Shown: positions 10,639 through 58,560 of the stretch, piece after piece | Position numbering within the stretch: the stretch's first letter is position 1 | Layout: the number at the start of each line of letters is the position of its first letter | Source: Asterella californica | Taxonomy: Eukaryota > Streptophyta > Marchantiopsida > Marchantiales > Aytoniaceae | Direction: 5' to 3' | Assembly (NCBI GenBank): GCA_036924285.1 | Contig: JAYKYS010000011.1 | Location: 4,588,001-4,652,000 of the forward strand | Length of the DNA stretch: 64,000 nucleotides | Position numbers and translations under genes: made by a program | Notes under the pieces: model-generated | What the model saw: only the letters and a program-made list of their open reading frames with translations | Told to the model about the DNA's origin: nothing | Databases searched by the model: none

Positions 10639-10989
10639 TGTCACGTCAGTTTGACACCTCGGTTAGGTTGACCGAGTGCGGAGTGATGAATCTCGGTAGG
10701 ACCGTTAGTGCTGTTACGGCGAGTTGGTGAGATAGCCCACTAGGAGTATATTTCGCAGGTAGGGCTTGGAGGCCTTAGTTCTTCGAGTTGAGCTTTCAAG
10801 CTCATGGCTATGGTGGATAGTCTTGGTGAGTGCAATCTGGATTCTCTACGAGCACAGAGTGGATTTGGCTCGACTTTAGTGATTGTTTAGTGCCCGTTGG
10901 TATGGTGGAGTGAGTACATACTGTGTATCACTCGAAGAACTCGAATTGCGAGGTCTGATTTAGATCTTTCAGGTCACAGATTTTTGCCA
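10639..10989 (+). repeat. 5' LTR of element D
   Basis: It begins TGTCACGTC and ends GCCA, followed one base later by a primer-site-like sequence. The first 80 bp and the last third match 45047-45187 by eye, with about 150 bp missing from the right copy. Divergence between the two copies is high, so D is old. The outer left edge is set by the TG start and by the start of similarity. Confidence 0.6.
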
Positions 10990-11002: not shown

Positions 11003-12474
11003 GGCGAAACGACCGAACCAAACTATTTGGAGTTGGCAGATCGTTGATACCTTCGATTTGCGAGTGCGTGCCTACACGGAATGGTTCTTTTGATCGATCG
11101 CTGTGTGAATTACTACTGTTTGAACTTGTTCTTGGTCGAATTGGTGGTAAGGTAGTGCGGAAGCGCTGTTGGAATTTCTCGTGATAGATTTTGAGATCAA
11201 TTTGAGGTCAACAGAAGTGCGTCGGCTGTGATCGAGTGTAGTAAGTGCGCGCAGAGAAGATGATTTCAACGCAACAAAATCGTTTGATTTGATGAAAGAT
11301 CGAAAGAGTTACAAGAAGAAGAAGGTCACGGGTGGTCCAAAATCTGACGTAATCTGGCTTACGATGCCAATTTGGCAGATTTTGACCTTGTGGAGTGTGT
11401 CTTCGATCTCCAAGTTGCTGTTTTTGGGTTCTTCTATTCATGCGCATCCTGTTTGTGTTGTTTGGCTCGAGTTTCTTCTCCTACCCAAGCAGAACGGAGC
11501 GGAAAGTGAGCGGGAGTGTCAAGGTGTTTAGAGACTTCGAGGAGCAGAGGTGCGTGAGTGCGGAGGCGTGAGAAGCCGAGTGCGAGAGAGCAGAGACGGA
11601 GCCTGAGCTCGAGCTCGAGCTTGCCGCAAGCCAGCTTGTTGGCGTGCGTGCGTGCGTGAGAGAGGAATGCAAGTTTCAATTGTGTGAGAAGTGTAAAATC
11701 AGTAAGTCACCCATCCCAACACTATTCCTGAACTTGCACACTTAACTCTGTAGTCTTAGCTTTGGCTCTATCACTAGTCCAATAGCTCTTGGTGTCTTCT
11801 AGGACCTTCTCGCACGTTCCTAGAGGAGTGGTAGGGCAACCCCATAGTACTAAGGAAAAGCTGTTGTTGTGATAGTGTTTGTCGATACTGTAGAGACGCG
11901 TATGGAGGTAGTTGGTGACAGTTGTCTTGGGTGAGCTAGTAGAGCTACCACGTAGATATTTTTGGAGTTACTAGAGGTGTGGACATCTAGTTAGTGATCT
12001 TAAGTATAAGTTATGACAGTTGGTGATCATATATTGTGCATGTGGTCACCGAAGAGGAGTCGTCGATCCAGGTGGGGCTGGGTTTCTCGTTATGTGAATG
12101 TTTGAGTGTGGAGGATTATCGTTTGGACTTCTTGTGGTTGGAACTCCTCCATATTCTACTTCTTGTTTGTGCGCTGTGTTTGCTTGTGTTGACGCTTGAT
12201 TTCTAGAGTGAGTTCACTCCAGTGTGTTACCTGTAGTGAGACTAGAGTGCGGACCAGTCAGACTATCTTTGTTTCTCTCACGGTGCGGTTGGATTGATGA
12301 TCAATAGATCGTGAGAGGCTGCTTGTGGTGATGACATGTACAAGTTGTCGTTATCTTGATCGTCCTAGTAAGGGATAGTGAGCTCTGTAGGAGCGGGGTT
12401 AGGCAAGTTGTGGTTACGATGGTGACGTGGATTTCAGCATTCTGGTTGGAGAGTGTTCATGAGATTCTAACATC
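11003..12474 (+). other. Leader region of element D
   Basis: About 1.5 kb separates the primer site from the gag ATG at 12475. Short frames such as 11289-11531 have no recognisable domain. It is treated as the untranslated leader, though some unrecognised coding could be hidden by decay. Confidence 0.4.
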
Positions 12475-12530
12475 ATGGAGTTCTTGAGAGATTCTGATGG
12501 AGACGTCTCGGACAGTGGGTATACATGGAG
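12475..12530 (+). pseudogene. Element D gag, N-terminal fragment before insertion A
   Basis: An ATG at 12475 opens an acidic frame starting MEFLRDSDGDVSDSG, cut after 18-19 codons by element A. The sequence resumes at 20222 beyond the second copy of the TGGAG target duplication. One frame change is needed to follow it into the 20221-20448 frame. Confidence 0.45.
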
Positions 12531-13660
12531 TGGATTTTCGCACACCTACCGCCTTGTTGCGCCAGCGGAAGCTCTTGCTCAGTAGGTCCCGAAATTCAAA
12601 CCGCTAACCTGCAAACACAATCACAAGTTAGCGTCCATGCACCACTTACCTTAGTTCTGTTTGATCCGGACCGGAGCCGGACCGTCTCCCAATCATCAAG
12701 CTCAGCAATCCTAAGTCCCGACTTAGATCCACCTAAGTCGGTCCCAAACATGAGCAAGTCACAATATGACTTGGGGCGGACTTCCCATAAAGTCCAGGGT
12801 CCTAAACGGTGCCTCCAGCACACCTAGCGACCCAACCGCCCGTGATGTTCGTCTGGGTCCAGGCTCCCGAACGGCGGTCTAACCCGCCGACTCGTTCCCT
12901 AGTCTTGCCCCAGCCCTTACATCGTTCCTAAGTCTAGCCGTCCAAGTCTAGATCGGAACGTGCCTTGGAACTGACCCAGCCATCACCTCATGCCCCCAGA
13001 GTCCGCCCGCCGAACCCTGGGGTCGGGTGACTCGTCCTGGCCCACCCAGGCATCGAGCCCCCCTCATATATACTTCTGGGGATCGGCGGCCCCGCCCTCC
13101 TCTTTGGTCCCTGAAAATTATACCACAACCCGATTGTGGTTCGGCCATAACTTCCAGCTCGGAGGTCAGATCGAGGAGTGTTATATATCACTGGAAAGCT
13201 CTCGACGAGACCTTTCCAATGATACCTCACTCGCCTCGAGATCTTACGTGGAGCTCCGTCCACGACCTAAAACGTCCCTGGAGCTCCAACACTTAGCAGT
13301 TTTTCCGAAAACCTGTGGTCCAGACCCAGGGTCGAACCCTGTGGTTCGTCTGCGTCTCGGACCCACGTCTCGGTCCCACGTCTCGGACCCACGTCTCAGA
13401 CCTATGTCTGAGACTCATGTTTCAGCCCGTTCTCAGACTCGCCCCCTCAGGTCAGCGTTCGTCTGGGGCCCTCTTGGGTAGGCCCTTATGTCCTAACCCA
13501 AGGTTCTAACCTTGGTTCAGAGAACCACTTAGGGTTCTTTTGATCCCGACTTCCCGGCCAAGCCGTTAAGTCCTACTCGCAGCGTTCACAACCTAGCGCA
13601 AGTCCGCTAGGGTTCTGTTGTTCGCGTCTGCGCCCGATCTTGAGAATGAGGGGCGCGACA
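12531..13660 (-). repeat. 3' LTR of element A
   Basis: It starts in element sense with TGTCGCGCC directly after the polypurine tract and ends next to the TGGAG duplication. It has a 13-bp minisatellite (13352-13416) and an imperfect palindrome (13192-13218). Its last four bases at the outer edge (TGGA on the plus strand, 12531-12534) are not matched in the other LTR, where the primer site abuts, so the exact end is uncertain by about four bases. Confidence 0.85.
13352..13416. repeat. 13-bp minisatellite inside LTR A
   Basis: Five tandem 13-bp units of the type ACGTCTCGGACCC, the last two degenerate. The same array is in the right LTR at 19908-19972. Tandem units in LTRs often carry regulatory sites, but no specific factor is implied here. 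Confidence 0.75.
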
Positions 13661-24883: not shown

Positions 24884-24916
24884 AGACTCGCTTTGCTCCT
24901 CTTGCCACTAAAATCT

Positions 24917-27283: not shown

Positions 27284-27339
27284 CTTACCCTTCTCCTTGC
27301 TTCTCTCTTTCTCCTTTGGTGTTGTAGGTGGTAGATCCT

Positions 27340-28434: not shown

Positions 28435-28780
28435 AACAACTCTGTCCTTGCTGCTGCTTGAGCTCCTTCACACGCCCACGAATCTCAGGGACAACAGCAA
28501 GTTCAAAGTTCTCCACCATCTCCTTCTCAAGTACCTTGTTCACCTCCATCTCCTTAGATAAGTACCGCACGTACTTGGAAATATCTGTCCCCTTGAACTG
28601 ATCCATCTGATGCACCACAGATTGCAACGCCTTGGTTGCTAATACCTCCTTCCTCTCTGTGCTCTGCTGCTGCTGCATAAACATGGAAAAAGCTTAGAAC
28701 ATCTTCATCGTAGCAGCATCCAACTGAACAAGTTGCTGAGCAGCAGCAGCACCTCCACTTGATGATCCTTGGTTGGCCAT
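28403..28780 (-). pseudogene. Element B gag N-terminus, copy 1
   Basis: Translation would start at ATG 28780 (MANQGSSSGG), run through an Ala- and Gln-rich stretch, and hit a TAA at 28696-28694 after 28 codons. The frame then stays open (MFMQQQQSTERKE) to 28403, overlapping the next gag segment in another frame. The early stop is in both array copies. Confidence 0.7.
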
Positions 28781-28856
28781 GATATCTGATCCTGTAACAC
28801 TCTCAAGAAAACTCCCACCCTAGGTGTTTCACGTCGAGTTCACCAAAAAGAGACTA
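28781..28856 (-). other. Element B leader, primer site not identified
   Basis: Only 76 bp separate the LTR from the gag ATG. No standard primer site is present. The first TGG-starting candidate (TGGTGAACTCGAC) lies about 11 bases inside the LTR junction and does not match a tRNA end I know. Confidence 0.5.
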
Positions 28857-30229
28857 TGTCGGAGTGTGATCCGTCTACTTAGGAAAGCGCTGGGCTTCTG
28901 GCTGTGGTTGTTTACTCAAGAGGTTGGCTTTCAGGTCACAACAGGAGCTACAAACACTCACACAGGAGTGTAGGATCCTCTGATATGCTCAAAAAGCGAA
29001 ATTTAGGTCTCAATGGTAGTAATAGACTTAGGCGGTGAACTTTGACACTCAAAGAGAGGAAAACTATGAAGGTTTAGACCTCTAAACTTCCCCTACATGC
29101 AAATGAGGTACTACTGAACTCACAGACGAAGTTTCAACCTGAGATCAAATTCTGACACGGAGATATGAACAGAAAAGTTCTGAATAAGAGAATTATGGCA
29201 ATTTCTGGTACCTAGACAACTATTCAGACATAGAACAGAGAATTGGCTCGATGAATTTCAAATCTTCTTACAGTATTTGAAGTCTACAGGATGCTGAACA
29301 TCCCTGTGAAGTTGGGACTTCTGAATGTTTGTAGAACTCCAGATCTCCTTCTCTAAAGTCGCTGCTCTAGATTAAGAGCTTTTCAAACCCCCTCTGCTTC
29401 AGCGGCCGCCCTGAATTACTCAATTACTCAAATGATTCAAAACTTTTTGGAAAGTCGTAGCCCTCCTGACAGTGAACGCAACCACGAAGTTTTGAAGTGA
29501 TTTCTTCAATTCTGCTGCAATTGGCACCGAAAACCCCAAAATCAACAAAAGTGATGCAGTTTTGGCACAATCCGAACTTCAATTGGGCATAACTCCTTGT
29601 TTATTGATCCAAATCGAGCAAACATTTCACTGACAGTGCTTGGCACGACGAGCTCTCTCTTCCTGTGCTCTCAGATTTCGAAGATACCTCACCAATTGCT
29701 CGAACTCTCCTCTAGAGCTCTGTTTCTAAACTTAGAGTTTTACAAAAGACAAAAATGGACCAATGGGAGTTCATAGCTCCACTTGACTGTCCTTTTGTGC
29801 CTTAAACTACCTGGTAACTTATCTACACTCATAGGCTACCACGTCAAGCCCCCTAGAGTGCCAGCGTAAAACTTAAACTACCTAAAATGACATATAGCCC
29901 TGAAAAATAACTTCAATTAGCTAGAAAGCGTGCATGGGCGACAAGTAAGTACAACCCATGAGCTCAAACCCCTATCAGCATGGAAACCCTAAGTTATGTA
30001 CATTGAACGTCATAGACAAGTAAGAAGTCACTTGCACAAGCGCACAAATGCTTGAACAAGATACCTAACATACTATCAGCCTACTAGGACTCAAAATAGT
30101 GTTAACACCGTATGCAAAGGTGTCAAACATATACATAAAGGACTAGAAGTAATATGAGCTAACTTCTAGAACTACCAAACCTAAGCGTCGGAGTAGAAGT
30201 CAAGCATGTAGCTGCCAAATGGCGCGACA
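28857..30229 (-). repeat. Family-B LTR copy 2
   Basis: Same 1,373 bp as copy 3 at every diagnostic site (28951, 29555, 30213), so both derive from the original 5' LTR. It acts as the 5' LTR of internal copy 1 and is followed on its right by D-gag DNA. Confidence 0.88.
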
Positions 30230-30853
30230 ACGGGCGCAGTTTCGGGAGGCGTAGCACTTGTGAGTTCGGGTGCCAGTAGTAGTGATACATCCACGGGTGG
30301 CGAAGTATCTACTACCAGCGGTACATTCACTAGTAGTGGAGAAGGTGGTAATGCGAGCGAGATACCACCAGGGTTTAATCTTGTGGTTCCGTTCTTTTAG
30401 TGTTTGAGGAAGAACTATCAGGATGTGCGGACCGACAAGTTGAGGAGTCTGCAGGAAGACTGGAGAGAGCCTACGCGAGACGTTTACTTGCATGAGGTAG
30501 TTGATTATCGTTATCCAAGGCATGACTGAAGCATAGGCAGTCTAGTTCTAGTATGAAATATTAGACCGGGAGCTGCGTAGGAGAGTCAGCGATACCACTC
30601 TCCTTAGAGACACTACTCCGACGTTGGCGGTTGTCTTTGGTTTGGCTGACCGGATTGAGCTCAACATAGTGGAGGAGAGGGTGGTGGTTGCTAGGTTCAG
30701 CAAGGAAACACCATATGGAGCAACCAACTCTTCTCGAGGATCACAAGCTGCGTAACAACATGGTGGTGGTGGCAAAGATCGTGCTGAACAGTCATGATCA
30801 CAAAGAGGTGTTGAAGGACATGGTCGGTAGAAGCCCATGCCGTCCTTCTCTAG
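30230..30853 (+). repeat. Duplicated D-gag segment, copy 2
   Basis: Same as 21988-22611 by eye, at the 8,242 offset, with the same breakpoint into the LTR tail at 30853/30854. Confidence 0.85.
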
Positions 30854-31148
30854 TGGGCGACAAGTAAGTACAACCCATGAGCTCAAACCCCTATCAGCAT
30901 GGAAACCCTAAGTTATGTACATTGAACGTCATAGACAAGTAAGAAGTCACTTGCACAAGCGCACAAATGCTTGAACAAGATACCTAACATACTATCAGCC
31001 TACTAGGACTCAAAATAGTGTTAACACCGTATGCAAAGGTGTCAAACATATACATAAAGGACTAGAAGTAATATGAGCTAACTTCTAGAACTACCAAACC
31101 TAAGCGTCGGAGTAGAAGTCAAGCATGTAGCCGCCAAATGGCGCGACA
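30854..31148 (-). repeat. Partial family-B LTR, copy 2
   Basis: 295-bp LTR tail against the polypurine tract of the second internal copy. It carries the 3'-LTR type base (C at 31132), like the first tail (22890) and unlike the full LTRs (T). Confidence 0.85.
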
Positions 31149-31196
31149 TCCACCCCCTCTGAACCTGCACATCCTCCGGTATGTGCCAGACCCAGA

Positions 31197-32396
31197 TCAA
31201 GACTCTTCAACTTCAGCTTCAAATTCATCTTCAACCTCCATTGAGTCTTCAGCTTCATCCTCAGTAAGCTCTGCAATGTTCTGGTCGTCCCCTCTCCTTC
31301 TAAAGAGTTTGATTCTCTTCCCTGCGACTGGTATCTTGAGCACTGCACCATCTAACTCTCTCAAAGAGTATGTGCCATTATCATAAACTTCTAACACCAC
31401 ATAAGGTCCGAACCATCTCTTGGAAAACTTTCTGATAGCGCTATGCTGATTATCAAGACTACTATCATAGACTAACACCCAATCACCTTCCTTAACTGGT
31501 TTGGGTCGTAATCTATGCGTTCTATCAAACCTGCCTTTGTTTCTCTCTCTAGCAGTCTTTAACCTTTCCACAGCTTTGGCAACATCCTCAGGTCTTCGTT
31601 CTAACTGTTGGATCCTTAATGTAAGAAGTTCCTCTGTACTTCTACCATCTTCCCATGGCAACACATTCCAAGTAGGCACAACCTCCTCAATCGGCATCAC
31701 AAGTTTTTGCCCTAGTATCAACTCTGCTGGCATGTAACCTGTAACGGTACTATGAGTTGTACGATCTGCCCACAAAGCAAATGGTAGCAGTCTAGGCCAT
31801 TCACGGATCTTACCCTTGCAAGCTTTTACCAAAGCTTTGATGATTGGCGGATGACCTCTTTCGCTCTTGTGATTCCCTTCAGGATTGTAAGCAGTGGTTA
31901 ACGCCAACTTGATTCCCAATCTCTTGAAGAACTCAACTGCTTCTTGTGCATCCAGCTCAACCCTATCTGCAGTGATCTTTCCCACACACCCATATCTACA
32001 AATAACATCTTCAAGTAGAAAGCGGCAAACACTAGCAGTGGTCTTCGTCCTCAGAGCACGGCCTTCGACTTGGTTAGATAGATCTTCTCTAGCCAAGACT
32101 AGATACCTCATTTATCCAAGTCCAAATGGCATAGTTACCAGATCAACTACCCATTTATAATGAATGGCTAAAGGATAAGTAGGATGCAATCCATCACGAT
32201 GGCGTACATTGGAGTACATCTGGCAGGGTATACAAGATGAAACAAACTGTACTACATCCTTATACATACCCTTCCACCAATACTTTTCCTTCATCTTGGC
32301 AAATGTAGCCCAAACTCCTCTATGACCGGCCCATAGACTCTCATGGAACTCCTTGATCAGCTTCTGCTGCAATTCCAAGTCACATACCACCCTCTA
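31197..32396 (-). pseudogene. Element B integrase, copy 2, with extra nonsense codon
   Basis: Same as the copy at 22955-24154 except that a CAA glutamine codon is TAA here (32114-32112, base 32114 versus 23872). This splits the frame into 31197-32111 and 32112-32390, between the zinc-binding domain and most of the core. The change must post-date the tandem duplication and is a C-to-T change on the coding strand. Confidence 0.87.
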
Positions 32397-33125
32397 CGGT
32401 ATACCTCCTTGTAGCTTAGGGCGCTTCCATAGATGTCCTCCATGTAAAAAGTAACCATAAGCTATTCTACGGATCCTCTTGAAATCTGCATCAGACCAGC
32501 CTTCTTGCCTTTCCAGTGAACTCAAATAGCGCCCAAGATCCAACCACTCGCCATCATACATAGTTTCCTCAAAAAACTCCAACGAGGCTGCAAAACAGCT
32601 TCTATCTCTTCTAGCAAGAGCACTAGAATAGAACTCTGTTCCCACATCCTCCTGATCATCTATCATTTCTTTCTCATCGTAATACCTAGCCCTTGATAAC
32701 ATATCTGCCACAAGATTATCTTTTCCTGCAATATGTCTAAACTCTGGGTTCAAGGACTTGATATATGCTATCCACCTCAACATAGCAATATCTGGAGTTG
32801 TACAGCTAGTGATCATTCCCAAGAGAGGTAAACAATCTGTCTCCACAACCACAGGTGCTCCTATCAAGTATTCCTTATCACTCTTCATCGCAGTAACTAC
32901 TCCCCATAGCTCTCTCTTGACTTGAGGGTAGTCTCTCTGCCGTGAACTTAATACCTTAGCACCAAAACGCACCACATATCTATTCCCATCCTCATCGTCT
33001 TGTCCTACAGCCCATCCAATGCCAATAGGACTAGTATCAACAGTAAGGATAACAGATCTGCCCAACTCATATGTTACCTTCCGTAGAGTTGGTGGTGAAG
33101 ACAACAGATCCTTCAACTTCTTCAT
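32394..33125 (-). pseudogene. Element B RNase H and linker, copy 2
   Basis: Same predicted protein as the copy at 24152-24883, with the same flanking TAG codons. The shared lesions show that they existed before the array duplicated. Confidence 0.82.
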
Positions 33126-33158
33126 AGACTCGCTTTGCTCCTCTTGCCACTAAAATCT

Positions 33159-35525
33159 CTACCCCTTCCTCAACAACTTGTACAGCGGATCTGCTACATG
33201 GGCAAAGTGTGGAATCCATATATGGTAAAACACACATGCACCTAGAAACCTTCTCACCTCAGTAACTGACCCACAAGTCTCCTTCATCCTTCGAATGGCA
33301 TCAACCTTGTTTGGACAAGGTTTCCGACCATAAGATCCACATAGGTGCTCCACAATCAACACCTCCTGTTCTCCAAACACAGACTTTGCTCCTGATAAAG
33401 TCAAATGAACCTCCTCCAGTCGACTCAGTATCTTATCACAATCAGCTATGTGATCTGCAACAAACTTACGGCACCCCCTCTGATCCATTATCTCATTCTT
33501 CTCCTCCTCAGCACATCCTTTGATCGGCACATCATCAAGGAATGACATAGTTTTTTCAGGAACGAAGTCCCTCAAAACTTTGTTCATGCCATTCATCATA
33601 TGTGCTACAGAATTGGTAGCACCTTGCGGCAAGGTGCACATCCTCAGTAACCCTAAAGGTGTCCTCATTGTAGTCAAGTCTCTACTTTCATAGGATAACT
33701 GAAACTGATCATAACCTGAATATAAGTCTCCCATCGAATAGATAGCACGACCAGCAAAAGCCTCTACAAACTCGTCTACAATAGGTCCTATACCCATATT
33801 TCTGATAGTTACCTTGTTAACTGGCTGCATATCTTGAATGAATCTCAAAGCTCCACTTTTCTTCGGAACAGTAAACCATCTGCTAGAATAGGGAGCTATA
33901 GATGGTTCCAAGATACCCATCCTAATCCTCTCATTGAGCAAGTCTATCAGCTTTGGCAGATGAGCTCTAGGCACAGGGATAGGACGTAGATTCCAAGGCA
34001 CATGCGGTATAGTAAAGATTACCATAGGTGCAACTACACTTGGATCTACACATCCTACTTCATGTGACTCAAATGCAAACGCCTTACCATGCCTAGATAG
34101 CATCTCCCTGAAGCTCTTCTTCTCCTGCTCGGTAAGAAATCCATCACCCCCAATCCTCAGCTCCTTCAGTGTTGTTTCTGTGAACTGGTGCCCAATTCTT
34201 CTCGGTCCTCTGAGCGTCGGTTCTCGTGCATCTTGCTCCATCTTCTGATTGTAATCGAGTGGCAAAGACAAAGCCACTGGTTTGACTTTCTTTGCCACTG
34301 ACTTGTACTTGGTCTCCACATACACCTCTTGTCGATCTATAAACTTATCAATTACATCATAAAGCTCCTTGGAGCTCACTCTCACCACTCTATCTACATC
34401 ATCTATAGAACTTTCTACTATAGATTTCAACTCCCCTATAGTATCTACCAAATACTGTTCTTCAAACACTCCAGATATGTATTCATCTCCTGCTAACTCT
34501 CCATTATCCCACAAAGACTGCTGTACACACTTCACATGTTGCCTCTCAAACCTCTTCAGATTCTCAACCTTCCTATAACACACTGATCCACATGACGTCA
34601 ATCCTAAGAAGCCAGTGGATAAAGCCTCATGTTCTACTGGATCAGGCGAGAATTCTATCTCTACTGTACCGTTGAAGTCTCGCTTCAATGGTACTCTGCC
34701 AAAACCCCTAGACTTTCTAAACTCCTGAGTAATCTTAGGTAGTGGACGGTCTCTCAAGCTATCACGATTCCTCTCATGTTCTGCAGCAACAGTAAAAAAC
34801 TGAACAGCTCTTTTGCCGTCTCTACTACGTATCCTAGCATAGGCTGAACCATCATCCATAACTCGTGTCTCCATTCTAACAGCAGTAATGTAAGGCTGCC
34901 CTAGAATGATAGGATAGGTTGACATGTCTTGCACAAAGAAATTCTGAACATCACTGATGTCACCCACAGTTACCTTGATGTTGGGACAAGCACCATAGAG
35001 TTCTCCCCGCTGGTTGTTGACAGCACGGATAAGCCATCCATGGTCGGTGTCTATGGGCCACCTCCCACGCTTGTACAGCTCCTTAGACATCAGATTAATC
35101 TCTGAGCCGTGATCAATCAATGCCACCACAGGTTCCTCTAGATCTCCCAGCTTCACTAAGGTCTCTGTGGTTGCTCTCGCCCAATGGTTGTGAGAATAAT
35201 GGCTCTTCTGCGATGCTTCCACCTCATCTTCAAACCTCACGTGCTGATCTGATCTCCCCTCTGATACTTGAGAGCAGTAACCAGCAATCTCATCTTCCTC
35301 ATCCTCCGACAGTTTGGTCCCTAGAGCGTTAAGCGTAGCTGCTTCACCCAAGATCTGACGTTTCCTCTTGATGATATCTATGATAACCTCATGGAACTCA
35401 CGCTTTGCAATCCCAAGAATCTCACCCAAAGTAAACTCAACCTTCCCATTCAAGATACGGTTCTCTAACACCTGCTTCAAGTCTGTAGCAATCTCAATGT
35501 CAGACTGAAGTTTGTATGTAGGCAT
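33159..35525 (-). pseudogene. Element B protease and reverse transcriptase, copy 2
   Basis: Same predicted 788-residue product as 24917-27283, including the IDHGSEIN protease motif and FLDD RT motif, and ending at the same TAG. Confidence 0.86.
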
Positions 35526-35581
35526 CTTACCCTTCTCCTTGCTTCTCTCTTTCTCCTTTGGTGTTGTAGGTGGTAGATCCT

Positions 35582-36676
35582 CTATATTCTCCTCCCGAGT
35601 AGGTGTTGTCTCCTGCCTTGTCTCTGGTCTAGCCCTTCACTCCTTGTAGCAGGTCGTTTGGCTGTAGAAGCCTCACCTGCATCCTCCCTCCTGCGTTTTT
35701 CTTCTAGTACAGCTTCATGCTGACTTCTTGCAACATAAGCATGCACTGACATAGTATCCACAGGATCATTCCATCCTGTAGCTTCTCGAATTGAGTTGCC
35801 AACCCTTCGTAGCACATCCTTGTCTAGCTCTGTTCTAGCTACGAACCGCACTACATCAGACCACAACCCAGTAGTCCCTTTTTCTCTCTCCATCTCCACT
35901 TTCACTCCACATGTAGTAGCATTCACAAGAGAAACAACATGTGATGTTGATATTTCATTCACAAGTCTCTTCATACCACCCTTGCCAAAGTTGGTTCCCA
36001 ACATCATCCCAGTCTCTCTCATATGGATCTTACCATCTTTGAAGAAGATCATATCCTTCCTCAATGCATCTGAAAACTCCCCACAATCTCTTCTTACATG
36101 ATCTAGGCTATCACACCATATACAGCGATGAACAAAGCCTTCTCTCATCTGAGGTCTCTGCATAGCAGGCTGTACATTCTGCTCCTTCTCTTCTAACCTA
36201 GTGAGCTTAAGCTTAAGCTCCTTCATACCCTTAATCAACTCATCAAGCGGTGAGTCTTCCTCTCTAGCAATTACCAAAGCAGACTTAGTAGGCAACTGCT
36301 TGACAGGAATTATCAGAGGTGCTGCTTCACTTACCACCACCTTGTCCCTTCTTCTCTGTCTCTTGGTCAGCAAAGAAACAACCTCTTCAACCTCCTTCCA
36401 ATCAGTCTTCAATCCTCTCTCCTCACCCTTGTCTTCCAGCAACAGCTCAAGCTTCTCCTGAATAGTCACGTCCGCTGCTTGTAGAAAAAGCTCGGTCTTC
36501 TCCACCTCTAGTGTAAGCTTCTCTGTCCTAGAAAGCTGAGCATACTGACGATCAAACTCCCTTAACAACTCATTTACAGACAAACCTTTGTTAGGCTTAA
36601 CCACCCACTCCAAGAACGTTCTCTTGGTCACCCTCTCTGAATCTTCAGTGTAGTACTCCTCCTTCAAAGCTCGCAT
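35582..36676 (-). pseudogene. Element B gag, main part, copy 2
   Basis: Same 364-residue product as 27340-28434 with the same zinc knuckle and the same frameshifts on both sides. Confidence 0.8.
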
Positions 36677-37022
36677 AACAACTCTGTCCTTGCTGCTGCT
36701 TGAGCTCCTTCACACGCCCACGAATCTCAGGGACAACAGCAAGTTCAAAGTTCTCCACCATCTCCTTCTCAAGTACCTTGTTCACCTCCATCTCCTTAGA
36801 TAAGTACCGCACGTACTTGGAAATATCTGTCCCCTTGAACTGATCCATCTGATGCACCACAGATTGCAACGCCTTGGTTGCTAATACCTCCTTCCTCTCT
36901 GTGCTCTGCTGCTGCTGCATAAACATGGAAAAAGCTTAGAACATCTTCATCGTAGCAGCATCCAACTGAACAAGTTGCTGAGCAGCAGCAGCACCTCCAC
37001 TTGATGATCCTTGGTTGGCCAT
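36645..37022 (-). pseudogene. Element B gag N-terminus, copy 2
   Basis: ATG at 37022 and the same early TAA (36938-36936) as in copy 1. Confidence 0.7.
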
Positions 37023-37098
37023 GATATCTGATCCTGTAACACTCTCAAGAAAACTCCCACCCTAGGTGTTTCACGTCGAGTTCACCAAAAAGAGACTA

Positions 37099-38471
37099 TG
37101 TCGGAGTGTGATCCGTCTACTTAGGAAAGCGCTGGGCTTCTGGCTGTGGTTGTTTACTCAAGAGGTTGGCTTTCAGGTCACAACAGGAGCTACAAACACT
37201 CACACAGGAGTGTAGGATCCTCTGATATGCTCAAAAAGCGAAATTTAGGTCTCAATGGTAGTAATAGACTTAGGCGGTGAACTTTGACACTCAAAGAGAG
37301 GAAAACTATGAAGGTTTAGACCTCTAAACTTCCCCTACATGCAAATGAGGTACTACTGAACTCACAGACGAAGTTTCAACCTGAGATCAAATTCTGACAC
37401 GGAGATATGAACAGAAAAGTTCTGAATAAGAGAATTATGGCAATTTCTGGTACCTAGACAACTATTCAGACATAGAACAGAGAATTGGCTCGATGAATTT
37501 CAAATCTTCTTACAGTATTTGAAGTCTACAGGATGCTGAACATCCCTGTGAAGTTGGGACTTCTGAATGTTTGTAGAACTCCAGATCTCCTTCTCTAAAG
37601 TCGCTGCTCTAGATTAAGAGCTTTTCAAACCCCCTCTGCTTCAGCGGCCGCCCTGAATTACTCAATTACTCAAATGATTCAAAACTTTTTGGAAAGTCGT
37701 AGCCCTCCTGACAGTGAACGCAACCACGAAGTTTTGAAGTGATTTCTTCAATTCTGCTGCAATTGGCACCGAAAACCCCAAAATCAACAAAAGTGATGCA
37801 GTTTTGGCACAATCCGAACTTCAATTGGGCATAACTCCTTGTTTATTGATCCAAATCGAGCAAACATTTCACTGACAGTGCTTGGCACGACGAGCTCTCT
37901 CTTCCTGTGCTCTCAGATTTCGAAGATACCTCACCAATTGCTCGAACTCTCCTCTAGAGCTCTGTTTCTAAACTTAGAGTTTTACAAAAGACAAAAATGG
38001 ACCAATGGGAGTTCATAGCTCCACTTGACTGTCCTTTTGTGCCTTAAACTACCTGGTAACTTATCTACACTCATAGGCTACCACGTCAAGCCCCCTAGAG
38101 TGCCAGCGTAAAACTTAAACTACCTAAAATGACATATAGCCCTGAAAAATAACTTCAATTAGCTAGAAAGCGTGCATGGGCGACAAGTAAGTACAACCCA
38201 TGAGCTCAAACCCCTATCAGCATGGAAACCCTAAGTTATGTACATTGAACGTCATAGACAAGTAAGAAGTCACTTGCACAAGCGCACAAATGCTTGAACA
38301 AGATACCTAACATACTATCAGCCTACTAGGACTCAAAATAGTGTTAACACCGTATGCAAAGGTGTCAAACATATACATAAAGGACTAGAAGTAATATGAG
38401 CTAACTTCTAGAACTACCAAACCTAAGCGTCGGAGTAGAAGTCAAGCATGTAGCTGCCAAATGGCGCGACA
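37099..38471 (-). repeat. Family-B LTR copy 3 (outer 5' LTR)
   Basis: Full 1,373-bp LTR forming the right edge of the array. It ends GCGACA, after which D gag resumes directly with ACGGGCGCAG. It holds the promoter that would drive internal copy 2 leftward. Confidence 0.88.
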
Positions 38472-39441
38472 ACGGGCGCAGTTTCGGGAGGCGTAGCACT
38501 TGTGAGTTCGGGTGCCAGTAGTAGTGATACATCCACGGGTGGCGAAGTATCTACTACCAGCGGTACATTCACTAGTAGTGGAGAAGGTGGTAATGCGAGC
38601 GAGATACCACCAGGGTTTAATCTTGTGGTTCCGTTCTTTTAGTGTTTGAGGAAGAACTATCAGGATGTGCGGACCGACAAGTTGAGGAGTCTGCAGGAAG
38701 ACTGGAGAGAGCCTACGCGAGACGTTTACTTGCATGAGGTAGTTGATTATCGTTATCCAAGGCATGACTGAAGCATAGGCAGTCTAGTTCTAGTATGAAA
38801 TATTAGACCGGGAGCTGCGTAGGAGAGTCAGCGATACCACTCTCCTTAGAGACACTACTCCGACGTTGGCGGTTGTCTTTGGTTTGGCTGACCGGATTGA
38901 GCTCAACATAGTGGAGGAGAGGGTGGTGGTTGCTAGGTTCAGCAAGGAAACACCATATGGAGCAACCAACTCTTCTCGAGGATCACAAGCTGCGTAACAA
39001 CATGGTGGTGGTGGCAAAGATCGTGCTGAACAGTCATGATCACAAAGAGGTGTTGAAGGACATGGTCGGTAGAAGCCCATGCCGTCCTTCTCTAGTCAGC
39101 AGCAAACGGGTCCTTGCTGGACATGTGATGATCCTCATCAACAAAAGGAATGTCCACAAAGGAGAGGTGGTTATGAGACGTCTTGGACGTCTCAAGTGAT
39201 GTCTATGCAATCTGAGCATAACGGGCAACCAGGTCACAATAGTGACCATTGTTTTGACTTCCACCCCGAGCTATATCAAGGAAAGACTGATCGTGGACGA
39301 GGCAGAGGAGCTCAGAGAGGTCATGGTGGTCGAGCTGGAGATAGGGGCCCAGCACCTGAGAGAGGACGAGTCTATCCATCGTTTGCTTCGACGTCATATG
39401 CGAGTATGGCTGCTAGGATTGAGCAGTTAGAGCAAGGATAA
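38472..39441 (+). pseudogene. Element D gag, C-terminal part with zinc knuckle
   Basis: Follows in frame from the D fragment left of the B array. A Ser/Thr/Gly-rich stretch leads to a TAG near 38641, then further coding-like sequence with changes of frame. The frame 39079-39441 carries a zinc knuckle, CWTCDDPHQQKEC, spaced C-x2-C-x3-H-x4-C, one residue shorter than the usual x4 before His. It is followed by a Gly/Arg-rich tail, as in nucleic-acid-binding gag ends. Confidence 0.7.
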
Positions 39442-39990
39442 CTAGTATGGCTAGGGCTCAGCAGAGCTCTCGTTCAAGAACAGAGGCTTCCACGTCTTAT
39501 CGAAGAGAAGGAGATGACTCTGACTTCATGGCTGGGGTGGTGCAGATTGAGACACATGTGATGGTGACTCGAGATGCAGTACGTGTCTCTGAGCCACGAG
39601 GTGCGTCGATGGAGTTGGATCCACAACAAGGGGAGGCTGGTAGACAAGCAAGGCTTCCTCATTCATTCACGTCATCGGAGACGTTGAGGACCACGTCTAT
39701 AGTTCCTAAACGGCCTATCGATGATGCAGTGGAGTTAGAAACATCGACATCCAGATGAGAGTGATGCGAGACAAACCTCGACGTCTGTGGATGTGCGTCA
39801 AATCCGATGTTGGAGACGGCTACAGCGGTTTTGCAAGCCCCACTATTTTCAGCCACTGATATGAAGACATTGAGAGTAAGACGGTAGATGTGTCCATGTA
39901 GTCAAAGATCAGGACAGCTACCAGTGGTATTTGGCAAGCGGCGACTGCTAGATTAGATTACCAGCTAGGCCGGCGATTGACCGTGCTGGT
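39442..39990 (+). pseudogene. Element D gag-protease linker
   Basis: The frame 39447-39758 is polar and low in recognisable structure (Ser, Arg and Glu rich). It links the gag zinc-knuckle region to the protease and is read as degraded linker; nothing else is recognised. Confidence 0.4.
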
Positions 39991-40523
39991 TTGGCACTAG
40001 GTGTGGTGCTGTTCGACAACAGAAGTGGTATCTTCTGCTTGGTGGCATCTTCAGGGAAGGTGTATCGACCGCAGAAAGTCTTGTTGGATTTTGGAGCCCA
40101 ATCGTTGATGTCGAGGAAGGCGGCGTGCATTAGTTTAGATTTGAGAAAGTCTGAGGTGGAGAAATGTCCATTCCAGCTACAGACATCTCTAGAGGATCAG
40201 GAGGTATATCTCTACACATGACACGCGAGATGCTGACGATGAGAGTTGGACCAGATCGTCCCACGGATGGCTTTATGATGAAAGTCAAGGTCATCGTTAC
40301 GACCGCGAAGTCGTATGATGTGTTGGTTGGAGATGATGTGTTATACCTTATGAGGTTCGTGATCGACTATTGGACAAAGATAACATCTTACAGACCAAGT
40401 TGGCAGTCCGATGAAGGACGAGTGAGCCGCTTATCAGTGCGGTTCAGTGCTAGAGTTGAGACAACGGAGCCTACACCAAGGACAATGACATCCGTTGCAA
40501 GGTTCAGTTCGGTCATCACTTGA
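39991..40523 (+). pseudogene. Element D aspartic protease
   Basis: The frame 39991-40221 has the protease active-site region as LLDFGAQSLMSRK, Phe standing where Ser or Thr is usual after the Asp. A shifted frame, 40164-40523, carries the C-terminal flap and dimer region with YDVLVGDDVLYLMRF and a DYWT block. A frameshift is needed near 40200. The protease would have cut the polyprotein. Confidence 0.7.
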
Positions 40524-40752
40524 CGAGTTGTTAGAAGGTAATGTCCATGCGGAGAATACTTCGGTCTTTGAGGAGGTGGGAGACATGCATAACATGACTA
40601 CGGTAGTACCATCTGCCTTAGATGTCCCACTTTGGAGTTGGAGTGGAGAGTTGCAGCAGTATGCTGATCGGTTGGTACAACAGGTTTGGAGTGAAACTTT
40701 TGTACCGCCAGAAGAGGAACAAAGAGTTGTTCCTGCTACTGGTCATGTGATC

Positions 40753-41842
40753 TTATCACCGTTGGATACGACTTCCATTGTGTGGCAATATCCAGAGGAG
40801 AGTGTATGTGTGCTGGAGCTGCTTGGAGATATCAGCACAGGTTTGGCTGCGGTATTGCATACATGCATACAAGTACAGCGATACTTGTATGTGGAGAGGG
40901 ATAAGGTTGCAGGACTTATCTCAATGCGTCATGTGACACTTTTGGTGTAGAAATATCCTGAGTTGTTGTCCATATCAGTCGTTAGAGGATACAAGCAAGC
41001 ATTACCGTAAGATATTTTGCTGCTGGGGACGCATGATCTTACGTTTCTTGACATCATTCACTTGGTGATAGCCGGGTGGTCATGTCAAGAGCACACGCGT
41101 GCTGGGAGAGATCATGGTTTATATGACCCACGATCTATGATGTTTTGGGAGATGTACGGATCTTACGACATCTCTAGATGCATCAGGTGGATTCTCTAGC
41201 GTACATCTTGGAGAAGGTTGTTTTGTTGGGTGATGCTCGTACACAGATGATGACGAGTGTGCACCAGGTGCGGTCTTGGGTTGGACCGGCAGTGCTGTTG
41301 TGATGGACGAACTTGTTACCGAGGGAGGTGCTCAAGCGCGCACACGATGCAGTGAGACGACCAGCGCACCTCACGGTTGATGGCATCTTGGATGCAGGAC
41401 GACGATCTCAAGTAGTGAGAGTCGTCGATAGATCACTCATGGTAGTGATGAACCTATTGGGACGGTCCATGGCAACGTTGCCCACTTTGGTGAGCTTTCC
41501 AGCGTCACATGCTTACAGAGATGGAGGACCTCGGCTGTGTGAGATGCTCGGTAAAAACAGTTGGTGGAGCTCAATGCAAAGGAGAGAGAGCGAGAGATGG
41601 ATTTCGCTATGGATATGACGGGGGTAGCTTCGACGTCAGAGATTTCACGTCGTCAGGTGTTGGGTCAAGCAATGGACTTGAATGACTTGACGTGGATTGT
41701 TAGCCTTGGATTGGTTGAGCAGCGTCGAATGCGATCAACGGGTGTTACTGCTCGGACACTTCTGAGCTCTTTGTCTACTAGGTCGGAGGAGGCAAAGGTT
41801 GGGGGTGAGGCGTGTGAAGTTCATCATCCTTGGACATCATGA
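40753..41842 (+). pseudogene. C5-cytosine DNA methyltransferase domain of element D
   Basis: Dnmt3/DRM-type methyltransferase motifs occur in order. Motif I (S-adenosylmethionine binding) is near 40809-40845 (VLELLGDISTGLAA, degraded from a G-x-G type). A YVE acidic block follows. Motif IV with the catalytic Cys is GWSCQ (Cys codon 41083-41085, Ser where Pro is usual), followed by GLYDPRSMMFWEM, close to Dnmt3 GLY...FFE. Motif VI is EKV (from 41211) where ENV is usual. WTNL is near 41304. A Dnmt3-like PTL block lies near 41490, and motif X as RRQVLGQAMDLN lies near 41650. The Arg-rich segment normally before WTNL appears deleted. Nonsense codons are at 40948-40950, 41008-41010 and 41196-41198, with frame changes near 41200 and 41550. 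The domain lies between protease and RT, and its last segment is in frame with RT, so it was part of the polyprotein. It would have methylated cytosine in DNA; this copy is inactive. Confidence 0.85.
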
Positions 41843-41899
41843 GATGTTATAAGAGAGAGTGTAGAGCTTGTAGCTAGGACTGTAGAAGTTTTTCGCACA

Positions 41900-43028
41900 G
41901 TGGTGGTAGAGGTTGTTGGTGGTGAGCAGAAAGAAACTGCTCCAGAGATTGAAGGATATCAGTCAACGACTTTGTCTTCTACCTCTAGCAAGGTGACAAA
42001 GGATACTTGGGAGCTGGAGATTGGACCTAAGCTTATAGAAGAGGAGAGACGAAGACTTCAGAGATTTTTGAAGAGCTACAAGAATTGTTTTGCCTTTAGT
42101 ATCAAGGATTTGGGCACCTTGAAGGGACCTGGTATACGGATCGACTTGGCTAATAACACGTTAATCTTTCGATATCTTTATAAGTACAGTTACATGGAGA
42201 GAGTCTTGATCCAGAATAAGACTCAAGATTTGTTGGAGGTTGGGTTGGTGGAGATGTCGCATGGCGAGTATGCATCTTCCACAGTTATGTCAGCAAAGAA
42301 GGATATGTATGAAAACTACACGAACAGACGGATATGTGGAGACTACTGTCTTATCAATCGGCAAACAAAGTCCGATAAGTATGCCATGCTGACACCTGAG
42401 GAGATCTTTGATGCAGTGAGGCATGTGAAGATCTTCAGTACTTTGGATCTTCGAGCAAGTTATCATCAGTTGCCAGTGAGAGAAGAAGATAAGTCTAAGA
42501 CAACATTCTGAAGAATTGATTCTCACGACAAGGATTGTTTGTATCAGTGGCGGTTCTTATCATTTTGGGTTGAAGAACGCCTCTGCTGAGTTCCAAAGGG
42601 TGATGGATAAGATCCTAGCAGGATTGGATTTTTTCAGATGTTATATTAATGACATCTTAGTCTATAGTGCTACAGTGGAGGAGCACGAGAGACACATACG
42701 AGATGTGTTCGAGCGGTTGAGAGCTCATGGGTTGAAATTACACCATGGGAAGTGTAAGTTCTTCCAAGAGTTGGTAGAGTATCTGAGCCACACCATCTAC
42801 CTAGGTGGGTTGGGTGTTCAACAGAAGAAGGTTGAGGCTATTGCACGTATTCCACACCCCACAGATGTGAGTCGAGTTCGGGCATTTGTTAGTTTGACGA
42901 ACTTCTATCGTCGATACGTGAAAAAGTTTAGTGCAATTGAGAAGTCATTGACCAAGCTGATGAAGGTGGACCAAGAGTGGCAGTGGAGAGATGAGCAAGA
43001 GCGAGCTTTTTGTAGAGCTCAAGGATAA
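41900..43028 (+). pseudogene. Element D reverse transcriptase
   Basis: Two frames, 41900-42511 and 42516-43028, joined by a frameshift near 42512. The first has the RT N-terminus and ICGDYCLINRQT and STLDLRASYHQL blocks. The second has FGLKNASAEFQ and the active site YIND. Its first catalytic Asp is Asn (codon 42648-42650), which would abolish polymerisation. The connection region follows (VRAFVSLTNFYRRY). Confidence 0.9.
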
Positions 43029-43659
43029 GTTGACATCTATTCCCATCTTGAGGAGATCCGTTAGGGGGCGTCCTTTCCAACTGCATAGTGATTGGAGTAT
43101 GTTGGGATTTGGAGCAGTGCTGACTCAGCATGATGATGAGAAAAAGAAGTTTGTGGCGGCGTATGTCATTCGCTCCAACAATTCAGCGGAGACGAGATAC
43201 ATTTCGTACGAGGAGGAGCGTTTAGCTGTAGTGTGGGCTGTTACACACTTCCGATGTTACATGTTTGAGAACTCCTTTACTCTCATCACTGATCACAAAC
43301 CGCTCAAGTGGTTGAAAGAGTCCGACAAGCTAACAGAGAAGCTTGCACGATGGACTCTGATTTTACAGGTGTATGACTTCCACATAGTGCATAGACCTGG
43401 AGTTGCAAACCTAGATGCCGATGGGTTGAGTCGTAACACATGCACAAGTCAGCAGGATCATACTAAGGCTCGATGGCATGACGAGGTTGATGAGATAGGG
43501 CTAGGATGGCATACATCTGTCTTTCTTTGTGTGTTGGCTATGAACTCTAGTATGGAGGACCAAGTCGTATCTTTCTCTGATCAGAGAATAGATGAGGAGT
43601 CTGCAGATCCTGAGGTGGAGATGGTGTTCCAGACCAGCGATATATCCATGACGATGTGA
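43000..43659 (+). pseudogene. Element D RNase H
   Basis: Frame 42991-43659 after one more shift near 43000. It begins FQLHSDWSMLGFGAVL, where Asp is retained and Ala is Trp, and includes EERLAVVWAV, the TDHKPLKWL block and DADGLSR. This is the standard gypsy RNase H order directly after RT. Confidence 0.88.
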
Positions 43660-44612
43660 TCATAATGGAATATCTACGTATTGACATGGTGGTAAGCACA
43701 GTAAGTATCAAAGAGCGAGATCGTGTCCTTCAATGAGCGAAGAGATTTTGACGAGAAGGACGACATGTACTTTGAGTGTGAGATGATGAGAGAGTACGGA
43801 TAGTGTCACATCCATCCTAGAGGACACAGTTAGTACGACATGCCCATGAGGAGTTGAGATATTTTGGAGTGAAGTGTACACATAGCTTACTCCAAAGACA
43901 GTATTGGTGGCACGATATGCGCATCGATGCGCAACAGTTTGTCGCACGATGTGTGATTTGTGATCGAGTAAGAGCATCATTTAATGCTCTTACTCCATAG
44001 TTACATCCTTTATCGATTATGGGGTTGAGTTATCATTGGAGTTTGGATTTTATGGGATCCTTACCGTTGACCGTATGTCACCACCTGTATGTGTAGATGA
44101 TGGTGGAGCACTTCTCCAAGTATAATTGAGTTGGTGACATTATCAGACAAGGCGAGTGAAGGGACGGCGTGTGCGTTCTTAGTCGAGTGCTGAGTCATTT
44201 TGGAGCATCAGTTGAAGTGCTGATGCACCAATGTACAAATTTTCTTGATGAGTTTCAGACCTTGTGTGATCAGACGCGATTGATCATAAGACTACATCTC
44301 GAGATCATCTTGAGACGGATGGTTTGGTTCAGCATAGAGACACGTTGGATATACGACTATCCGAGGAGGAGGTTATCGGTCATCGATTTGCAGGTTTCAT
44401 CTTGGCAATTATATCTATCTGTAGCAAACTGCACCGACGTTGGATGTAACCGTAGAGCGTACTATTTTACGAGTGCGTGAGATGTTACCTTCTGGAGTAC
44501 TCATGTTAAAGGGCGGTGATGGTGTTGTTTGGAGGACCATGTGCATAATTGCGCACCATGTCATCTTTCCAAGATCGATGGTATCGTTGACCCAAGCTTA
44601 GTAGTTGTACGT
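43660..44612 (+). pseudogene. Element D integrase
   Basis: A zinc-binding domain lies near 43830-43960 (HAHEELRYFG, then CVICD), followed by a core start SLDFMGSLP near 44040. Several TAG and TGA codons and frame changes follow. The segment 44169-44480 continues the core. The second catalytic Asp position reads LMHQCTNF, so Asp appears replaced by His. The third acidic residue is in another frame near 44310 (ETDG). The domain ends with an HNCAPCHLSKID-like block before the PHD-like finger. Confidence 0.8.
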
Positions 44613-44763
44613 GCGGGCTTGAGGTGTATGTTGTGTGAGTCTACTGGTGGAACAGCCTGTATGTTGGTGTGTGATGGTTGTTCGAGAAGTTAGCACATGT
44701 TACATTTGACTTCATCTCTCAATGTCATTCCTGTAGGACGGTGGGCTTGTCCTCGATGTATAT
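44613..44763 (+). pseudogene. PHD-finger-like domain at the C-terminus of element D
   Basis: One frame gives CMLC, then an 11-residue gap, CDGC, a His four residues later, and a final CPRC after RWA. This matches the C4HC3 layout of a PHD zinc finger, including the W-x-C-P-x-C end. Two lesions are visible: a TAG (44689-44691) at the residue before the His, and His where the sixth zinc ligand (Cys) is expected. PHD fingers bind histone tails, commonly methylated H3K4. Here it may have guided integration, as chromodomains do in other elements; that role is inference. Confidence 0.75.
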
Positions 44764-44938: not shown

Positions 44939-45294
44939 TGTGATACACTTGTGTATGTGTATGACATCGTCCATGTGTTATGTGTATATGTGGCGTATCT
45001 CTGACAGCGATGTATGTTGTGTAGCGATGTGTACGCGCATGACAGTTGTCACGTCAATTTGACACTTCGGTTAGGTTGACCGAGTGTGAAGTGACGAATC
45101 CTGATAGGGTTGTTAGTGCCTTTTGGCTCGACTTTAGTGATTGTTTAGTGTCTGTTGGCATGATGGAGTGAGTACATATCGTATATCATTGTGGTACACT
45201 TGTGTATGTGTGTGACATCATCCATATGTTATGTATATGTGTGATGTATCTCTGACAGCGATGTATGTTATGTAGCGATGTGTATGCGAACGTT
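44939..45294 (+). repeat. Element D 3' end: partial LTR between two 105-bp repeats
   Basis: Block X (44939-45043) begins TGTGATACACTTG and recurs near 45188-45294. Between them, 45047-45187 matches the 5' LTR (10639-10930) with about 150 bp missing. Either X is the true U3 start, lost from the 5' LTR, or X is a separate tandem repeat with the LTR piece inside it. The exact 3' boundary of D is therefore unclear. Confidence 0.55.
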
Positions 45295-48603: not shown

Positions 48604-49044
48604 CTAGGCAGTCAGAATGACGGCACCACCGGCTTCCTTGATCTTCTTCTCGGCGAGCTTGGAGAAAAACTTGGCCTTCACGACCATGGGCTGAGTAGGA
48701 AGACCACCCTTTCCGAGTACCTTGAAGTACCCGTGTTGTGTGACGTCCAATAACGGAGCAGCAGATTCGCCACTGGCCTTCTGCTTAATGTCTTCGGGCA
48801 CCAAAGACCACAACTTGTCGACATTCACGATGGGACAATGAAACTTGTTCATCGTTTTGTGGAAATATCTCATACCAACCTTACCGAAGTAACCAGGATG
48901 CCATTTGTCGAACAAAATTCGGTGGTGGTGCATACCTCCAGCATTACCGCGACCTCCAGGATGCTTTCTGTGCTTGCCAACCCTTCCATGACCAGCACTA
49001 ACATGTCCTCTCTTCTTCCGATTCTTTTTCAATCTCGTCGTCAT
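48604..49044 (-). CDS. RPL27A: 60S ribosomal protein L27a (uL15)
   Basis: A 146-residue uninterrupted frame with ATG at 49044-49042 and TAG at 48606-48604. The N-terminus ([19 protein letters not shown]) and the Gly/His-rich [16 protein letters not shown] block are diagnostic of eukaryotic uL15. The ending [14 protein letters not shown] is plant-like. The protein is a core component of the large cytosolic ribosomal subunit. Length is normal for the family, and no residue loss is seen. An intronless coding region is usual for several plant copies, and I see no poly(A) or target duplication to suggest a retrocopy. It reads away from the LINE at 49.4-53.8 kb, and its upstream side carries a telo-box. 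Confidence 0.97.
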
Positions 49045-49430
49045 CTTGAATCCTGGAAATCACAACAAACCACGACGGCACGAGCCGATCGCATCGATTG
49101 AAAGAAAGGATAGGAAACAAGCTCAAGCTCGCTCTTGACCGAGACTCCAGCTCCCCAGACTTTAGGGTTAGGGTTTACGAAGCCCTCTCATTTACTCTAA
49201 CATCTGAAGAGTTCACTTCTGTGCTCTCTCTACGACGGCAGTTGGACGGTTCATCTACAGCAGCTCCGTCCATTCATTCTGCCTGCGGAGAAAAAAGGTG
49301 TTCGAGGGTAGTAGATTCATCTACAGCAGTTCCGTCCATTCCCTATCTGGTGGCCACTGCGGTCGTGCTTCTGCCGACCAAAGCAGAACGCAGCTGCAAG
49401 GTTGCGGGCTGAATTCCGACGGCCGTTCAT
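49045..49430 (-). promoter_or_regulatory. RPL27a promoter region with double telo-box
   Basis: TTTAGGGTTAGGGTTT at 49161-49176 is two overlapping plant telomere units, 117-132 bp upstream of the RPL27a ATG. In plants such telo-boxes are typical of ribosomal-protein promoters. Further upstream a 26-bp direct repeat (49250-49275 and 49316-49341, one mismatch) may be a duplicated control element. The region ends near 49430 at the LINE. Confidence 0.65.
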
Positions 49431-58263: not shown

Positions 58264-58560
58264 ATGAAGATGCAAAGGTTGGATTCATACGACATCTTAG
58301 TCTATAGTGCTACAGTTGAGGAGCACGAGAGATACTTACTAGATGTGTTCAAGCGGTTGAGAGCTCATGGGTTGAAGTTACACTCGAGGAAGTGTAAGTT
58401 CTTCCAGGAGTTGGTAGAGTATATGGGCCACACCATCTACTCGGGTGGGTTGGGTGTTCAACAGACGAAGATTGAGACTATTGCACGTATCTCACGCTGT
58501 CGTAAGAAGTTGAAATATGGTCTAGGAATACATGAGGTATCTGGCTCTGGAGAGATACAA
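58264..58560 (+). pseudogene. Family-D reverse transcriptase fragment
   Basis: From 58291 it matches 42651-42855 of element D at high identity (DILVYSATVEEHER, then a FFQELVEYMGHTIY block). It lacks everything before the second Asp of the active site and everything after IETIARIS. It is a D-family copy different from the one at 10.6-45.2 kb, trapped between the two C LTR arms. Confidence 0.85.

Follow-up and report, generated by a model that had tools for sequence, protein, structure and literature searches.

Element D lies in a 64,000-nucleotide stretch of the Asterella californica genome (Marchantiopsida; assembly GCA_036924285.1, contig JAYKYS010000011.1, positions 4,588,001 to 4,652,000; hereafter the window) and is a defunct member of a Gypsy-type retroelement family that is old yet has been active in recent times. 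In intact members the first open reading frame (ORF A) encodes gag, protease and a DNMT3-type cytosine methyltransferase. A preliminary description of the window had placed a DNMT3-like domain between the protease and the reverse transcriptase (RT) of element D, and intact relatives, copy L013 among them, bear this out. It had also assigned the enzyme to pol, which the intact relatives contradict: in these the enzyme closes the gag-protease ORF, and an in-frame UAG precedes the RT encoded by the second frame (ORF B). Placement, conservation, fold and selection of the enzyme can be read directly from the copies. Taken as a whole, the evidence is probably best explained by a dead member of a family in which a leaky stop doses the enzyme, the enzyme is packed into the particle as a writer of methylation, and a PHD finger steers insertion.

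Intact copies and termini of the family

A search of the host genome (516.7 Mb, 773 contigs) returned at least 123 matches to the methylase profile PF00145 at E 2.5e-6 or better (123 of 1250 first-look candidates scored), several of them sitting in open frames of about 1370 residues. Forty of the 123 loci were examined, 20 at 9 kb and 20 at 4.5 kb; four (L025-L028) were set aside as possible cellular genes, and 35 of the 36 others align to the family, L035 being the exception. These 35 copies are mostly 92-99.7% alike in long alignments, and the search recovered the same domain between protease and RT in open frames. By its rbcL sequence alone the host is very probably a land plant and likely a liverwort: among the best 120 of 7997 matches, from a database clustered at 90%, the highest named identities are 271 of 280 to Marchantia paleacea, 293 of 308 to an entry labelled Corallocarpus and 292 of 309 to the moss Fissidens.

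ORF A of intact copies spans about 1370 residues, with the methyltransferase at its end (PF00145, E 1.2e-8 in L013). ORF B, of 1041 residues, is open in 8 of the 16 copies seen at 9 kb, the others being broken or cut by the end of the stretch, and in L013 it matches RVT_1, RT_RNaseH, Integrase_H2C2 (PF17921) and rve (PF00665), in that order, followed by a PHD finger (PF00628, E 6.7e-11). Pfam returned no gag or protease match on ORF A of L013; zinc-knuckle-like motifs occur there at residues 375 and 409, and DSGA at residue 731. The proteins are those of Ty3/gypsy elements in the usual order: zinc-knuckle gag, aspartic protease, RT, RNase H and DDE integrase.

The termini of the family are not plain long terminal repeats (LTRs). 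The identical direct LTRs of Ty3/gypsy elements are absent from the two sides; a single 297-base repeat A stands at the 5' end and B-A-B at the 3' end, B measuring 107-108 bases. We therefore call the family Gypsy-type by its proteins and DIRS-like by its repeats. A 4-base target-site duplication accompanies both copies for which the two flanks were seen (CCTC in L017, TAGA in the window copy). B1 equals B2 in five of seven copies and differs once in the other two, and A1 and A2 of L013 show a single difference over 222 bases; such near-identical end repeats indicate that the family moved recently.

Class, conservation and selection of the methyltransferase

The five motifs I, IV (PCQ), VI (ENV), VIII and X, in unpermuted order, are all exact in 16 of the 22 open copies, and the catalytic PCQ and ENV are kept in 22 of 22. 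Across 33 aligned relatives P, C, Q and E are each conserved at 90% or more and N is invariant. Structures of DNMT3A are the top structure matches of the L013 domain (DNMT3A 28.3, 4dkj 24.4, HhaI 23.7), and PDB profile ranking likewise favours DNMT3; by these two rankings the domain is nearer DNMT3 than other C5-methyltransferases. The ranking lists contain neither DNMT1 nor CMT, an absence that is no test of either. Pairwise identity is uninformative on class, reaching 25.7% to the host DNMT3 and 24.6 and 27.3% to host DRMs.

Two cellular origins were considered and rejected. Recent derivation from the DNMT3 gene of the host is opposed by the 25.7% identity between the L013 domain and L025 over 268 residues, and also by a phylogeny in which 29 element rows form a single clade (support 100/99; 26 of the 203 listed relatives described below plus L009, L013 and L062; the tree has two very long branches). 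An origin from DRM is rejected on the unpermuted motif order and the profile ranking. As for the loci set aside, L025 is the host DNMT3 gene, with an intron inside the catalytic domain, L026 and L028 are DRM genes, and L027 is a further PF00145 match.

The median ratio of nonsynonymous to synonymous substitution rates (dN/dS) of the methyltransferase is 0.19. It was computed on open copies (22 of the 35) from pairs with dS above 0.08 (108 of 231), the pairs not being independent. Elsewhere in the element it is 0.15 in gag, 0.16 in the protease-linker region, 0.05 in RT, 0.10 in RNase H, 0.16 in integrase and 0.08 in the C part of integrase.

A UAG codon between ORF A and ORF B

ORF A and ORF B lie in one frame, parted by a single TAG. 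This junction codon is TAG in 34 of the 35 aligned host copies, L036 being deleted there, and the hexamer that follows is CAGTCA in 32 of the 34 and CAATCA in two. UAG CAR YYA is the known readthrough signal of tobacco mosaic virus (PMC2194720, PMC2754532), and UAG followed by CAR YYA is what 34 of the 35 host copies and the distant relative L062 possess. An in-frame CARYYA occurs at 14 of 4612 codon positions of the ORFs (0.3%), both junctions counted. The stop is thus the same as in the virus and the hexamer matches; unlike in the virus, a methyltransferase would here be parted from a polymerase, within a retroelement. From the frame shared by the last methyltransferase segment and RT, the preliminary description had concluded that the enzyme was part of pol. 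The shared frame is real in the window copy, but there the relatives' TAG reads TAT, followed by CAGTCA (41957-41965).

L062 shares 34% identity with the host family in ORF A and 66% in ORF B, and its junction reads TAG CAATCA; since it is a distant lineage, it provides an independent case of the junction. It is contig CADCWO010000201.1, which encodes a retroelement in a genome labelled cyanobacterium, a filing that most likely reflects contamination; its first and last 60 bases coincide, the pattern that a circular assembly leaves.

Among database relatives with the protease-methyltransferase make-up and a complete domain, 24 of 25 end 66-161 residues past the domain. Five of six Marchantia relatives end 68-70 residues past it and P0128 at 8, the corresponding figure for L013 being 71. 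That the stop is confined to one side of the tree was considered and rejected, as P0151, which stops 85 residues beyond the domain, falls in a group with the single-ORF relative P0155.

Relatives and their architectures

The relatives comprise the best 120 of 247 from a first search and all 83 from a second, 203 in total. Among these, 29 are named: 28 come from Marchantia polymorpha, M. paleacea, Riccia, Calypogeia and Sphagnum, and one from a bacterial bin. RT precedes the methyltransferase in 34 of the 203 (with integrase after it in 28) and follows it in 14, while 155 pieces show no RT. In the tree of the methyltransferase domain (83 rows), a 41-row clade unites bryophyte elements with rows ending after the domain (SH-aLRT, the Shimodaira-Hasegawa-like approximate likelihood ratio test, 98), and the order RT-methyltransferase-integrase occupies a group of 35 rows (SH-aLRT 80); of the other six rows, P0155 and P0157-P0159 are single-ORF elements, whereas P0151 and P0187 stop once the domain is complete. 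A tree of RT separates the two domain orders with one change each, which indicates that enzyme and polymerase have long travelled together. Both trees are supported by SH-aLRT values only.

A second architecture is seen in P0160-P0202, mostly unnamed elements, where the methyltransferase lies between RNase H and integrase and a PHD finger is often present. A scan of viral contigs returned no relative with a single-sequence query and ten weak matches (25-39% identity) with an alignment query.

The decayed copy in the window

Element D is laid out in the window as follows.

10639..10874 (+): 5' terminal repeat A1, 85.7% identical to repeat A of L013; begins TGTCACG, preceded directly by TAGA
11498..12534 (+): 5' leader, then the first part of ORF A as far as a later insertion; three pieces, 80-93% identical to L017
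20217..20612 (+): gag segment flanked by two later insertions, 89.6% identical to L013 95-490
38469..39877 (+): gag, continuation, 83.9% identical to L013 486-1915
39115-39153 (+): zinc-knuckle-like sequence motif CWTCDDPHQQKEC in gag
39879..40755 (+): protease region and linker, 87.3% identical to L013
40756..41743 (+): DNMT3-type cytosine methyltransferase domain, broken; 88.6-88.9% DNA identity to the L013 domain, and read from translations
41957..41959 (+): position of the relatives' putatively leaky UAG, here TAT then CAGTCA, as aligned with the 35 host copies
41960..44327 (+): remains of ORF B (RT, RNase H, integrase), 89.2% identical to L013 over 41297-44327
44622..44762 (+): C-terminal PHD finger of the integrase ORF, interrupted by one stop; from translation and PF00628 in L013
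44938..45044 (+): 3' repeat B1, 93.5% identical to B of L013
45047..45120 (+): 3' repeat A2, remnant, 82.7% identical to A of L013 across 75 bases
45188..45292 (+): 3' repeat B2, end of the element, 91% identical to B of L013; TAGA one base further on

The methyltransferase motifs listed in the preliminary description are present where it had put them and are distributed across three frames (three-frame translation of 40753-41842): motif I (LELLGDISTG, 40813-40842), motif IV (GWSCQ, 41074-41088), motif VI (EKV, 41211-41219), the WTNL block (41304-41315), PTLVSF from 41481, and motif X (LGQAMDLN, 41660-41683). The domain is damaged by frameshifts, stops and a deletion across motif VIII; comparison of two aligned pieces with L013 places the loss of about 43 bases, including that motif, near 41297-41305. 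The profile check suggested at the time succeeds in part: the relatives score E 2.5e-6 or better, and the window copy alone stays below threshold, since PF00145 reaches only E 0.1 on the piece that holds motif IV and finds nothing on those that hold motif I, the WTNL-PTL block or motif X. The methyltransferase call in the window is nonetheless secure, because intact relatives carry the full domain. Upstream, the protease motif reads DFGAQ (40087-40101), its counterpart in L013 being DSGAQ; downstream, RT_RNaseH is matched at 42964-43659 (E 1.2e-29), and the PHD-like finger reported earlier is real.

Transitions affect 278 of 2353 C or G sites and 41 of 2238 A or T sites of the window copy, and its C-to-T decay is 0.108 in CG, 0.162 in CHG and 0.109 in CHH contexts; such an excess at C/G sites in all contexts is expected of a silenced, methylated copy. 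A strand-specific editing signature was ruled out, C>T (121/919) and G>A (157/1434) being nearly symmetric.

Several neighbouring features were recorded. A young element at 12535-20216, with 1,126-base terminal repeats (12535-13660 and 19091-20216) that are 99.5% identical, is apparently inserted in element D. A 10,244-base stretch is repeated at 20611-30854 and 28853-39096 (99.96% identity, offset 8,242 bases), either because it was duplicated in tandem very recently or because of an error in assembly; a gag piece of element D is thereby present three times (21985-22612, 30227-30854 and 38469-39096). A 203-base RT-region fragment of the same family lies at 58289-58491 (92% identity). A second gypsy-type element at 33159-36709 (-) has an RT only 23% identical; no methyltransferase was noticed in it, and none was searched for. 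An open frame for ribosomal protein uL15/L27a occupies 48604-49059 (-), its top PDB chains being named 60S L27a-3 or uL15x.

Comparison with known elements

The preliminary description had likened element D to an element that de Mendoza et al. (2018) reported from Klebsormidium, and the likeness holds in the DNMT3-type domain within a Gypsy-type polyprotein (PMC5890265). In that element, KnitGypsy-Dnmt3 of Klebsormidium nitens, the domain is unrearranged and under purifying selection (Ka/Ks under 0.2), and the domains are Gypsy-like with repeats arranged DIRS-like (Fig. 4 legend), matching A...B-A-B (PMC5890265). Compared by description, the present element fits the KnitGypsy-Dnmt3 kind in its Gypsy-type proteins, DNMT3 domain and DIRS-like repeats. 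It differs, on the same footing, in that the Klebsormidium enzyme is reported in the Pol ORF (PMC5890265), whereas here it is encoded together with Gag, ahead of a putatively leaky UAG. None of the 203 listed relatives bears the name Klebsormidium, though only 29 of them carry any organism name. SymbioDIRS-Dnmt3 and SymbioLINE-Dnmt are likewise retroelements with captured cytosine methyltransferases, and the SymbioDIRS enzymes of dinoflagellates methylate CG in yeast (PMC5890265); they employ tyrosine recombinase or LINE (long interspersed element) machinery, in contrast to the DDE integrase (PF00665, PF17921) of ORF B.

Among the open-licence papers covered, none was found to describe a land-plant retroelement that bears a methyltransferase. 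PMC12344493 restates the streptophyte and dinoflagellate cases, and such elements are stated in PMC6338049 to be absent from land plants such as tracheophytes. The main text of PMC5890265 contains none of the words 'PHD', 'readthrough', 'moss' and 'Marchantia', and 'bryophyte' once, about cellular DNMT3. Bryophyte CHH methylation is ascribed to DNMT3-type enzymes (review, PMC8566409). Five cellular methyltransferases, of classes MET, CMT and DRM, are counted in Marchantia, DNMT3 not figuring in that count (PMC5784723); Marchantia protein records nonetheless contain element-borne DNMT3-type domains.

How the enzyme may act

Most ribosomes would halt at UAG, giving Gag-protease-methyltransferase in Gag-like amounts, and a minority would read through, adding RT, integrase and PHD finger. 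The methyltransferase would be packed in the particle where cDNA forms and would methylate the new cDNA there, or act shortly after nuclear entry. The PHD finger on integrase, which may be one of those that recognise histone H3 with an unmethylated lysine 4, could steer insertion to silent chromatin. A chromatin-reading module at the integrase end of the polyprotein also marks the chromoviruses, Ty3/gypsy elements with a chromodomain; here a PHD finger replaces the chromodomain and a DNA methyltransferase is added. A new copy would thus arrive pre-marked as silent DNA, doing little harm to the host and concealed among older silent DNA, and a DNMT3-type mark might pass to the host as its own silencing mark. 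Gag-level synthesis via the leaky stop, particle packing, action on cDNA and PHD steering draw on established biology, and we give them an about even chance.

Several observations weigh against this reading. The stop shared by the host copies does not amount to 34 independent cases, all 35 being closely related, and no convincing RNA structure was found after the stop (z -1.8 in L013, -0.8 in L009). P0155 and P0157-P0159, of the same domain order, run the methyltransferase into RT in one ORF. The constraint on the PHD finger is weaker (dN/dS 0.42; 13 copies, 13 of 78 pairs). Ordinary host methylation explains the all-context C-to-T decay of the window copy. Strong CG self-methylation would predict CpG depletion, and self-methylation visible as CpG loss was not found in L013, where observed/expected CpG of coding DNA is 0.73 (0.67 in the whole window, 0.37 in the neighbouring gypsy element at 33159-36709), unless the time was too short. 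Finally, the Klebsormidium enzyme showed no activity in yeast, a result termed inconclusive by de Mendoza et al. (PMC5890265).

The alternative that fares best, although we hold it unlikely, is action in trans, an abundant Gag-side methyltransferase entering the nucleus and silencing competitors or host defence genes. High enzyme amounts are what a Gag-side position predicts, and the copies are many (the 1250 first-look candidates); such action would, however, endanger the element's own expression, and the window at 0.67 is not strongly CpG-poor. CpG counts also lend no support to the speculation of the preliminary description that the element silences rivals or hides from defence. Somewhat less probable still is retention of the domain for a non-catalytic or RNA-directed role, such as binding element RNA or cDNA in the particle: the alteration of at least one of the five motifs in 6 of the 22 open copies is consistent with it, but not the intact PCQ and ENV in every one of them, nor the conservation of P, C, Q, E and N among relatives. 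We think it improbable that translation never passes the UAG and that ORF B is expressed by reinitiation, from an internal start or from spliced RNA, the CARUCA being coincidental; codon eleven of ORF B is indeed ATG and the stem-loop after the stop is unconvincing, yet frame, stop and hexamer type are shared by two lineages only 34% identical in ORF A, with CARYYA at a mere 0.3% of codons. Chance motif matches in a decayed element lacking a methyltransferase, which the E 0.1 of the window copy alone might have suggested, are as good as refuted by intact relatives with full domain, fold and selection.

Significance

Plants silence transposons by cytosine methylation, and it is therefore a standing puzzle that a transposon should retain, under selection, a methyltransferase of its own. 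The family described here, of which element D is a dead copy, lets one ask directly why a genome parasite writes the mark used to silence parasites. Its open young copies, together with relatives recorded from Marchantia, Riccia, Calypogeia and Sphagnum, bring this question within reach of tractable laboratory species, and the leaky stop yields a testable prediction on dose. A bolder reading, to which we give less than even odds, is that the element possesses a write-and-read kit dosed by the leaky stop, that new copies are born silenced, and that the kit has been retained since a single capture that predated the split between moss and liverwort elements. If so, the host, which has a DNMT3 gene of its own, would receive DNMT3 activity from the element as well.
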